Assembly (NCBI GenBank): GCA_016778895.1
Contig: JADHOR010000019.1
Span: 1-33,409, forward strand
DNA from: Candidatus Puniceispirillum sp.
GTDB lineage: Bacteria; Pseudomonadota; Alphaproteobacteria; Puniceispirillales; Puniceispirillaceae
Reading direction: 5' to 3'
DNA: 33,409 nucleotides
The position numbers and the translations under genes are program-made. Position 1 is the first letter of the stretch; the number at the start of each line of letters is the position of its first letter. Positions 1,504 to 33,409 of this stretch are shown one piece after another. The notes below the pieces were generated by a model. It searched no databases and was not told the DNA's origin. It saw only the letters and a list, made by a program, of their open reading frames with translations.

Positions 1504-2682
1504 TTACGGTAGCTCAATCGCGGCGGCAAGGTGGCTTGTAACCAGCGCATTAACCGCCTTATCGAGCGAGTGTCGCGCCACTGCCGCCTGCAACCAGTTA
1601 TCAAGTAGTGGCGGATCAGTACCTGACCATTGCCCAGCTGCCCGCATTGCCGCGGCAAGATCCTTAACCGCAAGCGCCGTCTCAAAATCGCGCAATGCCA
1701 TCGCATTGCCGCTAGCCAAATCACCAATTGGCCGCAACTGCACAAGCTGGCCAATCTTGGCACCAGTTTTTTCCAGAAAGCCTGCGTTATCACCAGCACG
1801 ATTCAAGGCCACAGTCATTTGCGGCACCAGATCATAGGCGTCTTGAATTAGTTGCGGGGCGCTTGCCGGCAGTGGGATTGCGGTCTGCCGCAATTGATCT
1901 AAACCGGCCATCGATATACCGCGATCTGCCAACCCTTGAAGAAGCGCTACCCATCGATCAAGCGGCTTACCCGCCAGATTATCTGCCAACAGGCCGCTGA
2001 CGACCAGCAGGCCAGTTTGGCTGATAAGTGACTGCTTGGCAGACTCCGCCAAAACCGATGCCCCCGGTGATGCTAGCGAGGGACTTGCCGGGATTGCAAG
2101 ATTGGCAAGCGCAGCCTCAAGCGCGGCAAATCGGCGATCCATATCAGCCCGGAACGCAACAGAATCCCTGCCCGCACGATCAGTCACCCCTGAGGCGGCG
2201 TCTGCAACCTGATGCGGGACTGGCGCTGATGCGATCTTGGCCAGCTGCTCCTGCATTTCAGCAAGCGCCGCCTGCTGGCGTTCACGTTCGGCCGCAAGCT
2301 GAGCCATAATCGCGGCGAATCTCTTATCCAGCGCGGCCTGATCTGTCACAGAATTGCGGTCTTGTGAAACTTGGCGTTGTTCTGGAGTCTGTTGACCGGA
2401 GACTGCAGCGCGAACTCCCACCATTTCTGCCGCGTGATGGCGTTGCTGCCAGATTGCAACTCCTGAAAGACCCATCGCAAAGACTGACAGACCGAGCGCC
2501 ACAAACGCAATTGCCTGAACCTTTGGCGATGGCTTGGCCAAAAATTTTGAGTCTATTGAAGCCGAAGCCGTGTCAGCGTGCGTGCCACCCTGTCTTGGCG
2601 ATGCGGTCTGGGCGGGTTTTTCGACCGCTTCACCGTCAATCATATCGCCTGACCCGGCAGATGGTTGCTTTGGTTTTGCCAT
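1504..2682 (-). CDS. Mitofilin/Mic60-like inner-membrane protein (COG4223 type)
   Basis: The 392-residue protein has a polar N-terminal segment of about 55 residues and one transmembrane helix at about 57-78. A Q/E/A/R-rich coiled-coil stretch follows (about 115-190). The helical C-terminal domain ends in a mitofilin-signature-like segment (about 335-392: AMRAAGQWSG, then LLDNWLQAA). Known biology: alphaproteobacterial Mic60 homologues, relatives of the mitochondrial cristae-junction protein, are typically encoded between the uroporphyrinogen-III synthase gene and hemY, exactly the position here. The inferred role is shaping or contacting the inner membrane, possibly tethering it to the outer membrane through the coiled coil. 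There is no strong ribosome-binding site. Length and architecture fit; sequence conservation in this family is low, so the call leans on context. Confidence 0.72.
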   Translation of the reverse strand: MAKPKQPSAGSGDMIDGEAVEKPAQTASPRQGGTHADTASASIDSKFLAKPSPKVQAIAFVALGLSVFAMGLSGVAIWQQRHHAAEMVGVRAAVSGQQTPEQRQVSQDRNSVTDQAALDKRFAAIMAQLAAERERQQAALAEMQEQLAKIASAPVPHQVADAASGVTDRAGRDSVAFRADMDRRFAALEAALANLAIPASPSLASPGASVLAESAKQSLISQTGLLVVSGLLADNLAGKPLDRWVALLQGLADRGISMAGLDQLRQTAIPLPASAPQLIQDAYDLVPQMTVALNRAGDNAGFLEKTGAKIGQLVQLRPIGDLASGNAMALRDFETALAVKDLAAAMRAAGQWSGTDPPLLDNWLQAAVARHSLDKAVNALVTSHLAAAIELP

Positions 2683-2830: not shown

Positions 2831-3574
2831 TCAGCCTTGCTGCTCACGCTTATGGCGCAGAACCGCGATGGCCATTAACCGGCTACGGCGTGGCTGGCGC
2901 GCAATATAGATATTCTGCCAGCCGCTACCGGCGGCGCTGGCAATGGCATTGCTCCCAGCAATTAAACTGCTCGACGCCAGAGCTGCATCCTGCCTGGCAG
3001 CGCTAACACCCGCCCGAAAAAGCTGGATTGACCGCCGTGACATGGCAACCACTGCCGCAACGTTTCGATCAGCCAGGGCGCTGGTGATTACTGCGGTAAA
3101 CCCAGCCGCCGCAATCATCCGATAAACCGGCACCCGCACGACGTCTAAATCCGCTAGCGCCGCTGTCATATCAAAGCTGACATCAACCGCACTTGGCCAG
3201 ATTAGACGGCCAGTCGTCAATCTGGATGCCGCAACCACCTTCCGGATTGGCGTAATCAGGCCAGCCCCGCTGCCATTACCGGTGATTACTTGCGAAAATC
3301 CGGCATCATGTGCAGCTGCCGCTGTTGCCGCGCCAACGACAAAGACCGGTTTTGCCGCCCATGCCGCGGCTGTAGGCGATCGCCGGATCGCATCAACAGC
3401 ATGGCGGCTGGTAAAAATAACCCCGTCATAGCTGGCTGGATCGGGCATTTCATGCGCAACTTGTATACCGCGCATAACCGGGCTGGCAAGCGCCGGAACA
3501 CCATAGCGTTGCAGCCATAATACATCACGATCAGCATCAGGCTGAGGCCGTATGATTAGGGTGAATTTTGCCAT
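2831..3574 (-). CDS. hemD: Uroporphyrinogen-III synthase
   Basis: The product cyclises and inverts ring D of hydroxymethylbilane to give uroporphyrinogen III in the cytoplasm. The sequence has the two-domain HemD pattern: an N-terminal part with IIRPQPDAD and a FTSRHAVDAI segment near residue 60 (SxxAV-type motif), and a C-terminal part with AVVAMSRRSIQLF (compare the usual SP..A..F). Overall length is 247 residues, normal for the family. Three consecutive ATG codons occur at 3580, 3577 and 3574. The upstream AAGGG directly abuts the first, so the third, at 3574, has the best spacing (6 bases) and was chosen. HemD is poorly conserved, but the location between hemC and the Mic60-like gene makes the call secure. 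The 109-base gap to hemC has no terminator that I can see. Confidence 0.9.
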   Translation of the reverse strand: MAKFTLIIRPQPDADRDVLWLQRYGVPALASPVMRGIQVAHEMPDPASYDGVIFTSRHAVDAIRRSPTAAAWAAKPVFVVGAATAAAAHDAGFSQVITGNGSGAGLITPIRKVVAASRLTTGRLIWPSAVDVSFDMTAALADLDVVRVPVYRMIAAAGFTAVITSALADRNVAAVVAMSRRSIQLFRAGVSAARQDAALASSSLIAGSNAIASAAGSGWQNIYIARQPRRSRLMAIAVLRHKREQQG

Positions 3575-3683
3575 CATCATCCCTTACTGTCACAGATCTG
3601 CGAATGGTTGCCAGCTAGATTATCACCAGCATTTCGTCCACCACCCAAAACGATGCCGCGATAAACCAGCCGGTCAATCCTGA

Positions 3684-4619
3684 TCAGGCAAGAAACCCGC
3701 GGCCACCTGCAAGACCCAATAATTCAGCACCCAATTCGGCGCCAAGCCTTTCTGCCTGTTCAGCAGGCGCAGACATTTGGCGGCGATGCGCGGCGCTGCC
3801 ATCAGGCCGCAGGATCATCCCGTCAAGCGTCACGTGACCGGCCTCATCAAGCACTGCACTGGCCGAAATCGGTGTCTGGCATGACCCATCTAGAAAGCTG
3901 AGGAGCGCACGTTCAGCAGTAACCTCGACAAGTGCCGTAGGGCAAGTCAGCCCACCAACAAGCGCCTTTACCGCAACTGCCCGGGGGGTATCAGACGCCG
4001 CAATCTGCACAGCCAGCGCACCTTGTGCCACCGCAGATGGCATAATCTCGGCATCAATCGGCGTATAGTCAATCTCCACACCAAGCCGTTTGATACCGGC
4101 AACAGCAAGAATAAGAGCGTCATAATCGCCCGCTGCCAACAACCCTAGTCGCCGGTTGAGATTGCCACGGATTAGCTGGATTTGAAGATCAGGCCGGTAA
4201 TTCAGTAAAATAGCGGCACGGCGAACCGATGCGGTGCCAATTCGTGCGCCTTTGGGCAAATCATCAAGACTGCGATATGGCCCGACAAGCGCATCACGCC
4301 GGTCTTCACGCACCAGAACCGCACCAATTACGGTGCCGGGGGCAAAAAATATCTCCATATCCTTCATTGAATGCACAGCGGCATCGGATTCGCCAGCCAA
4401 AATTGATCGTTCCAGCTCCTTGATAAATAGCCCCTTGCCACCGGCCTTGGCAAGTGGGCGATCCAGAATCCGGTCGCCTTGGGTGGTCACCGGACGCACC
4501 TTAACCGCGGCAGGTTTCAAGGCAGAGCACACCATCTCAGCCTGCACCATAGCAAGCTGCGATGCGCGGCTTGCCAAGCGCAGCGGTTCGGCATCAAAAA
4601 ACGAGAAATCAACGTTCAT
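3684..4619 (-). CDS. hemC: Hydroxymethylbilane synthase (porphobilinogen deaminase)
   Basis: This enzyme polymerises four porphobilinogens into hydroxymethylbilane on a dipyrromethane cofactor. The 311-residue protein shows the hallmarks: PLRLASRASQLAMVQ at the start, TTQGDRILDRPL with GGKGLFIKELE, HSMKDM, IGTASVRR, and the GSCQTPI loop whose Cys247 would bind the cofactor. It is the first gene of the heme operon and is transcribed divergently from tsaD across about 155 bases. The ATG at 4619 has no good Shine-Dalgarno sequence, but no alternative start fits the N-terminal strand better. The 5' region on this strand contains a GGGG/CCCC-capped potential hairpin of uncertain meaning. Confidence 0.97.
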   Translation of the reverse strand: MNVDFSFFDAEPLRLASRASQLAMVQAEMVCSALKPAAVKVRPVTTQGDRILDRPLAKAGGKGLFIKELERSILAGESDAAVHSMKDMEIFFAPGTVIGAVLVREDRRDALVGPYRSLDDLPKGARIGTASVRRAAILLNYRPDLQIQLIRGNLNRRLGLLAAGDYDALILAVAGIKRLGVEIDYTPIDAEIMPSAVAQGALAVQIAASDTPRAVAVKALVGGLTCPTALVEVTAERALLSFLDGSCQTPISASAVLDEAGHVTLDGMILRPDGSAAHRRQMSAPAEQAERLGAELGAELLGLAGGRGFLA

Positions 4620-4774: not shown

Positions 4775-5848
4775 ATGGCCCAACGTACCGTCATTATGCT
4801 TGGAATTGAAAGTAGCTGTGATGAAACTGCGGCGGCGATTGTCGCGGCTGACAAGACCATTCACGCTAATGAGATCGCGTCGCAAATCGATACCCACGCA
4901 AAACATGGCGGGGTTGTACCCGAAGTGGCAGCACGTGCGCATCTTGAAATGATTGATCAGGTGATCCGTGACGCATTGGCAAATGCCGGCATGACAATGG
5001 CGGACATTGATGCGGTTGCTGCTACAGGCGGGCCGGGCCTGATTGGTGGGGTTGCTGTCGGCACGGTTACGGCCAAGGCCATCGCCGCAGCCCGGCAAAT
5101 TCCCTATTACGCGGTTAATCATCTTGAAGGTCATGCGCTCAGCCCCAGGCTTGCCGATGATGTGGCGTTCCCGTATCTACTGCTGCTGGTGTCAGGCGGC
5201 CATACGCAATTGCTGGCAGTGGTTGGTCCCGGACAATATCACCGTTATGGCACAACCATGGATGATGCGGCTGGCGAGGCGTTTGACAAGTGCGCCAAGG
5301 CAATGGGGCTTGGCTATCCGGGCGGGCCAGCTATCGAGGCGGCCGCAAAAGACGGTAACCCAAAATCAATTGCCCTACCGCGCCCGTTGAAAGGTAGCGC
5401 GAATTGCCATTTTTCCTTTTCCGGCCTAAAAACCGCGTTGGCCAACCGCCTCAGCCAGCTTGGCGGGCCAAAGGCCGCGCCCTTGGCCGATCTTGCCGCC
5501 AGCCTGCAAGTCGCTATCGCCGATTGTCTTGCCGACCGTACTAAAATGGCAATGGCACGTTTTCTTCAGGCTTTTCCGCCGCAAGATGGAAACCAGCCTG
5601 TCTTGGTAATCGCTGGTGGTGTTGCCACGAATAAGCATATTTTCACCTGTTTACAGAAGGTTGCGGATGCGTCTGGGTTTCGCCTGTCAGTACCGCCGGC
5701 CAAATTATGTACCGATAATGCGGCGATGATCGCCTGGGCCGCACTCGAGAGGCTAGACGCAGCGGATGACCTGGGCTTTGCGCCGCGCCCGAGATGGCCG
5801 CTTGATCCTGAGGCAAGCCCGCCGCCGGGCCGGGGTGTTCGTCAATGA
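4775..5848 (+). CDS. tsaD: tRNA N6-adenosine threonylcarbamoyltransferase
   Basis: TsaD transfers the threonylcarbamoyl group to A37 of ANN-decoding tRNAs, working with TsaB and TsaE. The 357-residue protein carries LGIESSCDETAAAIV at the N terminus, the NHLEGH metal site (His116 and His120), the LLLVSGGHTQL nucleotide-binding strand (about 136-146), DDAAGEAFDK (163-172), and VIAGGVATNK near the end. The start at 4775 is preceded by AGGGA at a workable distance; an internal ATG at 4796 would remove only seven residues. It heads the set running divergently from hemC, and its stop overlaps the gpsA start in ATGA. This divergent arrangement is common in Alphaproteobacteria. Confidence 0.97.
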   Translation: MAQRTVIMLGIESSCDETAAAIVAADKTIHANEIASQIDTHAKHGGVVPEVAARAHLEMIDQVIRDALANAGMTMADIDAVAATGGPGLIGGVAVGTVTAKAIAAARQIPYYAVNHLEGHALSPRLADDVAFPYLLLLVSGGHTQLLAVVGPGQYHRYGTTMDDAAGEAFDKCAKAMGLGYPGGPAIEAAAKDGNPKSIALPRPLKGSANCHFSFSGLKTALANRLSQLGGPKAAPLADLAASLQVAIADCLADRTKMAMARFLQAFPPQDGNQPVLVIAGGVATNKHIFTCLQKVADASGFRLSVPPAKLCTDNAAMIAWAALERLDAADDLGFAPRPRWPLDPEASPPPGRGVRQ

Positions 5849-6822
5849 GCCGCGCTGTTGTTATTGGTGCTGGCAGTTGGGGGGCGGCAATTGCCAGCGC
5901 ATTGCAACGCGCTGGGCAATCCAGCATAGTTCTCGCACGTCGTCAGGAAAGCGTTGATGCGTTGGCCACTGGACGCTGCCTGCAATTACCAGATGCGAAA
6001 CCGGCAGCGCCGATTGCCGCGACAATCGATCCCACCTGTCTTGAAAACGCCGCACTGATTTTTGTTGCAGTTCCGGTGATGGCGAATCAGGCCAGTTTTT
6101 TAACCATCTCTGACCGTCAAAGCAGCGGTCAGCCTGGCGTCGTTATTCTTTGCGCCAAGGGCATTAGCAAGGCCGATGATGGTAGTGCCATGCTGCTGAA
6201 CGATCTTGCCGCGAGAACCTTACCAAATCACCCCGTAGCGGTGTTTTCAGGGCCCAGCTTTGCCGATGAAGTCTTTGCCGGACTGCCCGCCGCACTGGTC
6301 GCCGCCAGCAAGGACCCCACCATTACCAACCGCATTCAAGATGCTTTTGAGGGCAGTAATTTGCGGCTTTACAGCAATGATGATCCGGTTGGTGTAGCGC
6401 TCGCTGGCGCGATGAAAAATGTCATTGCTATTGCCGCTGGCTGTGCTGTTGGGGCGGGATTTGGCGACAATGCCAAGGCCGCAATCCTAACCCGGGGCCT
6501 TGCTGAAATTGCCCGTTTCGCCAGCTTGATGGGGGCTAAGCCGGATACCATTTTTGGCCTTGCCGGTGTTGGTGATCTGGCATTGACCTGCGCCGGGCCA
6601 CATTCACGCAATATGGCATTTGGCATGGCGCTTGGGCGCGGTGAGACACCACCAGAAAAGCTTGCCGAAGGCAGCCATACCGTTGCGCAACTGGCGGCAT
6701 TAGCCAAAGCCAACGGGGTTGATTTACCAATCACCAACGCAGTGGACAAGCTGGTTAATCACGGGCAGGATTTACATAGCATTGTGGCTGGCCTGTTGGC
6801 GCGGCGTGCCGGTGCCGAATAG
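5845..6822 (+). CDS. gpsA: Glycerol-3-phosphate dehydrogenase [NAD(P)+]
   Basis: GpsA reduces dihydroxyacetone phosphate to sn-glycerol 3-phosphate, the backbone precursor of phospholipids. The 325-residue protein has a Rossmann GAGSWG loop at residues 8-13, a CAKG segment at 103-106, FSGPSFADE (134-142), the GAMKNV segment with the likely catalytic Lys191, and GVGDLALTC in the C-terminal helical domain. The start overlaps the tsaD stop by four bases, so translational coupling is likely. Length is typical and no defects are visible. Confidence 0.96.
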   Translation: MSRAVVIGAGSWGAAIASALQRAGQSSIVLARRQESVDALATGRCLQLPDAKPAAPIAATIDPTCLENAALIFVAVPVMANQASFLTISDRQSSGQPGVVILCAKGISKADDGSAMLLNDLAARTLPNHPVAVFSGPSFADEVFAGLPAALVAASKDPTITNRIQDAFEGSNLRLYSNDDPVGVALAGAMKNVIAIAAGCAVGAGFGDNAKAAILTRGLAEIARFASLMGAKPDTIFGLAGVGDLALTCAGPHSRNMAFGMALGRGETPPEKLAEGSHTVAQLAALAKANGVDLPITNAVDKLVNHGQDLHSIVAGLLARRAGAE

Positions 6823-6871
6823 CGCAACAAAGCGTAAAACAGATGAAAAGACAAATGACAAGAGGGTCATA

Positions 6872-7291
6872 TTGCAATATTGGCTGATGAAATCCGAACC
6901 ATCATCATGGTCATGGCAAAATCAGCTTGACCGTGGCGCGGCTGGCGAGAGCTGGGACGGCGTGCGAAACTATCAGGCTGCTAATAATATGAAAGCCATG
7001 CAGATTGGTGATCTGGCTTTTTTCTATCATTCGGTCGATGAAAAACAGATTGTTGGCATTGTCGAGATTTGCGCGCTTTATCATCCCGACCCGACTGATC
7101 CCTCTGGCCGCTTTGGCATGGTCACCATTCGCGCGGTAAAATCAATGAACCGCCCGGTTACCCTCGCCCAGATCAAAGCCGATGAACGCCTCACCAATAT
7201 GCCACTAGTGCGCCAATCACGCCTGTCGGTAACACCGGTTTCAGCCGGTCATTGGGCGGTTATTATGGAAATGGGTGAAACCAGCCTTTAA
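6872..7291 (+). CDS. EVE-domain protein, probable TTG start
   Basis: The product (139 residues from the chosen start) is a single EVE domain, a PUA/YTH-like fold. Recognisable blocks are YWLMKSEPSSWSW at the N terminus, WDGVRNYQAANNMKAMQIGDLAFFYHS, the IVGIVEI strand, and the end SRLSVTPVSAGHW. EVE/YTH-like domains are known or proposed to bind modified bases in DNA or RNA; the ligand of this stand-alone housekeeping form is not known. The reading frame is open back into gpsA, but the domain begins at TTG 6872. That codon has a good Shine-Dalgarno sequence, AGAGGG (6861-6866), 5 bases upstream, and no in-frame ATG lies nearby. It follows gpsA by 49 bases, the usual alphaproteobacterial order. 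Confidence 0.88.
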   Translation: MQYWLMKSEPSSWSWQNQLDRGAAGESWDGVRNYQAANNMKAMQIGDLAFFYHSVDEKQIVGIVEICALYHPDPTDPSGRFGMVTIRAVKSMNRPVTLAQIKADERLTNMPLVRQSRLSVTPVSAGHWAVIMEMGETSL

Positions 7292-33332: not shown

Positions 33333-33409
33333 GCGCTCGTAGCTCAGCTGGATAGAGCACCAGACTACGAATCTGGGGGTCGGGAGTTCGAATCTTCCCG
33401 AGCGCGCCA
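33333..33409 (+). tRNA. tRNA-Arg (anticodon ACG)
   Basis: The 77-base sequence makes a complete cloverleaf: acceptor GCGCTCG with CGAGCGC, D arm GCTC/GAGC, and anticodon stem CCAGA/TCTGG with loop CTACGAA. The T arm contains AGTTCGAATCT, and CCA is encoded at the window end. Anticodon ACG, modified to ICG, reads the CGU/CGC/CGA arginine codons. Confidence 0.97.

Follow-up and report, generated by a model that had tools for sequence, protein, structure and literature searches.

The open reading frame at positions 1504-2682 (reverse strand) of the window, i.e., of the whole 33,409-nucleotide stretch of Candidatus Puniceispirillum sp. contig JADHOR010000019.1 analyzed here, is a conserved gene and not a chance reading frame. 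Its product is best read as a fast-evolving, divergent Mic60 ortholog, orthodox and in its usual place in the heme operon. With the alphaproteobacterial Mic60 of Cereibacter sphaeroides and its kin (COG4223) it has in common the membrane helix, the coiled coil, an LBS1-like motif, the C-terminal bundle and the position before hemY, whereas the window protein lies below Pfam detection, evolves faster and carries an N-terminal motif specific to its order. The pairing of Mic60 with the heme operon and the gene neighborhood are already known in Alphaproteobacteria; possibly new are the Mic60-profile proteins at hemY slots below the Pfam cut-off and a SAR116 clade whose slot protein has no mitofilin bundle. 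The added value lies in the Pfam blind spot, the speed of divergence and the bundle-less clade, and Mic60 in the heme operon extends to SAR116, the streamlined marine group from which the window probably comes and in which the standard profile sees nothing.

Gene and protein features

The frame starts with ATG and encodes 392 amino acids. In a single-sequence search, 27 of the 61 family genomes (own genome counted) yielded a match at E<=1e-3. The protein diverges faster than its operon neighbors: between the window and genome G020 the identity was 95.2% for tsaD, 94.2% for hemC, 86.1% for hemY and 77.3% for hemD, and 73.1% for the Mic60-like protein.

The architecture given in the preliminary description (one N-terminal helix, a coiled coil and a helical C-terminus) is seen in the Kyte-Doolittle and AlphaFold predictions. 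The only hydropathy peak above 1.6 has a mean of 2.13 over 19 residues starting at residues 57-59, which places a single transmembrane helix at about residues 55-77 (2452-2520, reverse strand, as are all parts of the gene given below), within an AlphaFold helix at 53-95 of low confidence. Two AlphaFold models (mean pLDDT 67.5 and 74.0) further show long helices spanning 111-152 and 167-195, and from 209 to 390 the C-terminus is helical throughout; the first 50 residues are of low confidence. The coiled-coil region was assigned to about residues 111-196 (2095-2352) from the predicted long helices and from the coiled-coil PDB chains that the profile matched, and the C-terminal helical domain of mitofilin type to residues 209-392 (1507-2058) from profile alignments and the invariant residues R317 and W363. 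Residues 299-321 (NAGFLEKTGAKIGQLVQLRPIGD; 1720-1788) form an LBS1-like helix with the motif [VI]x[VIL]R, as located with a 23-position model, and residues 326-390 (1513-1707) form the last helices of the mitofilin-type bundle (326-338, 342-350 and 358-390).

The N-terminal motif MIDGEAVEK (residues 14-22; 2617-2643), expected on the cytoplasmic side, conforms to a pattern, [VIMTFL][IVL][DE][GA], that is kept across the order. This pattern, which is loose and was picked post hoc from the same sequences, occurs within the first 70 residues of 43 of the 45 proteins of the order (shuffled sequences: mean 2.4, maximum 6), and in two of 20 unfused Mic60-like proteins from the rest of the class. Written as [VIMT]I[DE]G-x-A-x-E-K, the motif is present at 2617-2643 of the window and at the equivalent place in 42 other proteins of the order.

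Relationship to Mic60

The search with the Pfam mitofilin profile PF09731 that the preliminary description had proposed gave no match in the 392-residue protein at E<=10. The profile found nothing elsewhere in the same genome and, across 136 genomes from the order, nothing over its cut-off, which it exceeded in 124 of 289 genomes drawn from the class; Pfam and NCBIfam scans of the protein likewise gave no mitofilin match. As the standard profile is blind in SAR116, surveys based on PF09731 undercount Mic60.

The identity as a Mic60/mitofilin protein claimed in the preliminary description is nevertheless borne out by profiles built for the purpose. A profile was built from 30 alphaproteobacterial Mic60s that Pfam detects, using the 330 C-terminal residues of each. 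It matched the window protein with an E-value of 1.1e-9 (34.5 bits) among 1377 open reading frames, and the reciprocal family profile recovered 27 of the 30 Mic60s at E<=7e-5 from the same set. A profile-profile comparison of 18 family sequences (A1) with 29 of the 30 Mic60s (A2) yielded 99.1% and an E-value of 5.9e-19 over 272 columns. As this alignment takes in the coiled coil, the weight rests on a narrower result, in which ten sequences of the same genus alone aligned to Mic60 over residues 223-382 only (97.6%, E 4.6e-12). The C-terminal part thus matches Mic60 by profile. Of the two observations that the preliminary description had named as contrary evidence, a missing mitofilin profile match was indeed made, whereas an unrelated C-terminal fold is contradicted at the profile level. 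R317 and W363 are invariant in the joint alignment of 39 family and Mic60 sequences. Regarding the family rows, the two pieces of G029 (L011 and L028), L018 (at a contig edge), L024 (containing X), L027 (shorter) and the duplicates L029 and L030 were left out, and 23 of the remaining rows formed the local family set. In G029 itself the Mic60 gene is broken into three overlapping frames and HemY, too, is short there, at 251 codons; sequencing errors in this assembly may be the cause.

Compared with the PDB, the best match of A2 was 7pv1 (C. thermophilum MIC60 fused to MIC19; E 4.1e-11). With A3, which consists of A2, the window protein and the family, two coiled-coil chains ranked ahead of 7pv1, which came third (E 3.4e-6) with its last helices aligned; the stretch equivalent to residues 326-390 was placed on MIC60 residues 26-88 of 7pv1 (i-Evalue 2.9e-5). 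The likeness to mitochondrial Mic60/mitofilin concerns the C-terminal helices and is a link by profile, drawn via A2 and A3. Foldseek and VIA-align searches with the two AlphaFold models returned varied helical bundles and nothing distinctive, the Mic60 bundle 9qwr_B standing at rank 38 (E 2.4).

The LBS1 model was built from 73 Mic60-type proteins outside the order; the window protein scores 15.4 bits at residues 299-321, a score reached by none of 5450 shuffled decoys. F302 occupies the conserved aromatic position, and the arginine that precedes the aromatic residue in fungal LBS1 is absent (G301-F302). At the 1% decoy level, three of the 23 family proteins fell below the model, and of 11 other forms from the order that were scored, only L115 and L240 passed it. 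The stretch is only moderately amphipathic (moment 0.415, rank 33 of 378 windows, shuffle fraction 0.076). An argument from the helical moment was dropped, the value being moderate here and low (0.149 to 0.348) in six bundle-less relatives.

Operon and conservation of the slot

The gene is the third of four in the order hemC-hemD-mic60-like-hemY, all on the reverse strand: hemC at 3684-4619 (PF01379, E 2.2e-68; TIGR00212 over cut-off), hemD, the preceding gene, at 2831-3580 (PF02602, E 1.8e-20), and hemY, the next gene, with HemY_N and TPR parts, at 223-1476 (PF07219, E 1.4e-25). The operon diverges from a forward-strand group of tsaD, head to head with hemC, at 4775-5848 (PF00814, E 3.2e-87), gpsA at 5845-6822 (PF07479, E 3.2e-45) and a listed reading frame for an EVE-domain protein at 6719-7291 (PF01878, E 8.2e-46); the match in the last spans residues 53-185, so that the true start is probably downstream. 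According to PMC7641849, TsaD-GpsA-YciI-EVE stands head to head with HemC-HemD-IMMP-HemY, and the slot protein is described there, citing Huynen 2016, as a diverged HemX homolog that is also a mitofilin homolog. Between 5845 and 7291 of the window, gpsA and the EVE frame nearly abut, leaving no space for the yciI of the published alphaproteobacterial unit. The contig carries a tRNA-Thr at 1-74 and a tRNA-Arg at 33333-33409, and the assembly may thus have broken off on both sides at tRNA genes that are repeated.

The place before hemY, also claimed in the preliminary description, holds across the class. Among 124 typed Mitofilin rows from 121 genomes, at least 97 immediately preceded a HemY_N match, at a median distance of 133 bases, and four did not; in the remaining 23, HemY was outside the matches listed and the position was undecidable. 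(Note that the number of genomes over the cut-off is also 124, and that two of three G158 rows as well as G365, which is over the cut-off only when neighboring pieces are summed, were left out of the typing.) For 48 of the listed HemY rows, no neighboring Mitofilin row exceeded the cut-off on its own; with G151 omitted and L186 and L206 cut by contig ends, 45 of them remained for inspection. A Mic60-profile protein (E<1e-3) was found at 43 of these 45, the exceptions being L191, where the slot holds hemD, and L231, which has no open reading frame; the PF09731 threshold, which concerns detection and is in itself no defining trait, therefore misses real members, and the window protein is classed as Mic60 despite it. 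A Mitofilin row below the cut-off accompanies 14 of the 48, G365 passing when its pieces are summed.

Slot frames of at least 560 residues numbered 15 of 44, and those inspected start like HemD, which indicates that fusions of hemD and mic60 are common. Seemingly single frames of hemD and mic60 were noted in L054, L056, L061, L063, L067, L068, L070 and L072 and among the long frames in L185-L230. A helix-turn-helix-like start (GGIRPMAxKLxxxVTTVQGWKxRG) precedes the membrane helix in the Mic60 frames L044, L047, L048, L049, L051, L057, L058, L059, L204 and L209.

Proposed function and alternative readings

The protein is probably a divergent alphaproteobacterial Mic60. Its short N-terminus would be cytoplasmic, followed by the one membrane helix and a periplasmic coiled coil that probably dimerizes; the LBS1-like helix would probably enter the inner membrane shallowly from its periplasmic side, with the C-terminal mitofilin-type bundle behind it. 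Such a protein would most likely bind the inner membrane and bend or tether it, and its production together with HemY, a membrane TPR protein, and with the enzymes of heme synthesis might keep membrane sites in step with the supply of heme for respiratory complexes. In fungal Mic60, LBS1 mediates the binding and tubulation of liposomes (PMC5460017), and the review PMC12136173 describes alphaproteobacterial Mic60 as deforming membranes and its deletion as impairing growth where intracytoplasmic membranes are needed. Homology, architecture, the operon slot and its conservation are established by the present analysis; topology, dimerization, membrane bending and any functional tie to heme, including the one between membrane shape and heme or respiratory-complex assembly suggested in the preliminary description, are inferred. 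To our knowledge, no intracytoplasmic membranes are known in the SAR116 group, which was counted against this reading.

A different emphasis, rather unlikely on balance, would make the protein primarily a membrane scaffold of HemX type, which handles tetrapyrroles or heme together with HemY, membrane shaping being secondary or a gain of mitochondria and of those lineages that form intracytoplasmic membranes. HemX (PF04375) fills the equivalent slot in other proteobacteria and was found in 78 of 249 genomes of the phylum; E. coli has a hemCDXY operon. Operon slot and architecture are alike and homology is probable, but HemX has a different domain after the IRR motif, and PF04375 matched neither the 392-residue protein (Pfam scan, E<=10) nor anything in its genome. 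A first set of 30 mostly close, enteric-heavy HemX proteins gave only 43.9%, and diverse HemX proteins were therefore used: A2 against 25 of 64 HemX (A4) yielded 90.3% (E 1.4e-6) over 83 columns covering the LBS1/IRR region together with the helices that follow, with decoy profiles of HemY, HemC, HemD and TsaD all at 0.5% or less. All 64 HemX against Mic60 scored 55.3, whereas none of 60 column shuffles exceeded 20.8 and the reversed profile reached 24.7. Domain-cut or family-only comparisons with HemX were weaker (24.0, 37.0, 60.3, 65.9 and 8.8%), and the family alone against whole HemX reached 95.0%, but in the part with membrane helix and coiled coil. The LBS1 model was passed by 14 of the 64 HemX at the 1% decoy level, the other 50 falling below it, and neither HemX nor Mic60 was among the other's Pfam matches (best 25 families each). 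In the literature, homology of HemX and mitofilin is in print (PMC7641849), whereas PMC9764997 restricts Mic60 to Alphaproteobacteria and mitochondria. A literature search, in which subscription papers were mostly absent and which is therefore weak evidence, yielded no paper joining SAR116 with Mic60 or HemX with Mic60. Homology of HemX and Mic60 is considered likely, the values of the comparisons other than the best ranging from 8.8 to 95.0%.

Two further explanations weigh much less. That a generic anchored coiled-coil protein fills the slot and resembles Mic60 by coiled-coil composition is very improbable: Pfam is silent and A1 alone found coiled coils only, without 7pv1, among the best 60 of 74 PDB matches, but the alignment of the same-genus profile with Mic60 is confined to the C-terminal part outside the coiled coil, and the two invariant residues, the LBS1 score beyond all decoys and the class-wide slot likewise speak against it. 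The function of a uroporphyrinogen-III C-methyltransferase, a label borne by HemX, has a negligible probability, as it is suggested by the PF04375 label only, while no methyltransferase domain was detected in Pfam or NCBIfam scans at E<=10 and the AlphaFold model is all-helical.

Relatives without the C-terminal bundle

In all 11 genomes from three SAR116 genera (g2, 8/8; g6, 2/2; g11, 1/1) the protein between hemD and hemY was found to have no mitofilin bundle. These loci (L103-L106, L111, L112, L116 and L232-L235) belong to genomes of the order that were missed by the family profile and in which the slot was read directly. The proteins have 228-274 residues and consist of N-terminus, membrane helix, coiled-coil region and linker; where an LBS1-like stretch was found, e.g., DWFSGLVTIRK or GWWQDVSEWFGSLVSVER, they stop 3 to 33 residues past it. 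At the 1% decoy level the LBS1 model recognizes nine of these 11 proteins and misses L103 and L111, although L103 is similar by eye. The N-terminal motif, by the same loose post-hoc pattern, is present in 10 of the 11. In the loci measured, the stop codon overlaps or abuts the start of hemY, so that a bundle simply shifted into another frame is not the explanation.

The g2 profile matched the full-length family with 94.2% (reversed 3.3%) over membrane helix and coiled coil only, and the C-terminal domain with 16.9%; the values against the full-length family were 86.4% for g6 (reversed 22.4%) and 85.0% for g11 (reversed 1.7%). In a tree of HemC and HemY with 19 taxa, the seven bundle-less genomes included formed one group (UFBoot 99), which suggests that the mitofilin bundle was lost once in SAR116.

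According to PMC5460017, C. thermophilum Mic60 without its mitofilin domain shows slightly enhanced liposome binding and tubulation; when LBS2 is removed as well, binding decreases and tubulation remains, and removal of LBS1 abolishes both. The bundle-less SAR116 proteins resemble those fungal constructs that still tubulate liposomes without the mitofilin domain. It is tentatively proposed, at somewhat less than even confidence, that Mic60 of this subclade has naturally shed the whole bundle and left the N-terminal motif, the membrane helix, the coiled coil and a terminal LBS1-like helix, in which case the anchored core would hold the ancestral function in the heme operon and the bundle would be a dispensable regulator. 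If so, the membrane-anchored core would be the part that is common also to HemX. The series from full-length to bundle-less proteins within one order offers a ready test of the role of the bacterial mitofilin domain and of the part linked to heme.

Other genera of the order show further forms of the slot. Genus g8 (L113) has the reverse arrangement, with a C-terminal mitofilin-like part and apparently little coiled coil (33 residues masked or unknown). In genus g7 the slot is kept and holds a long protein with a poor profile match, and in L114 the slot is broken up.
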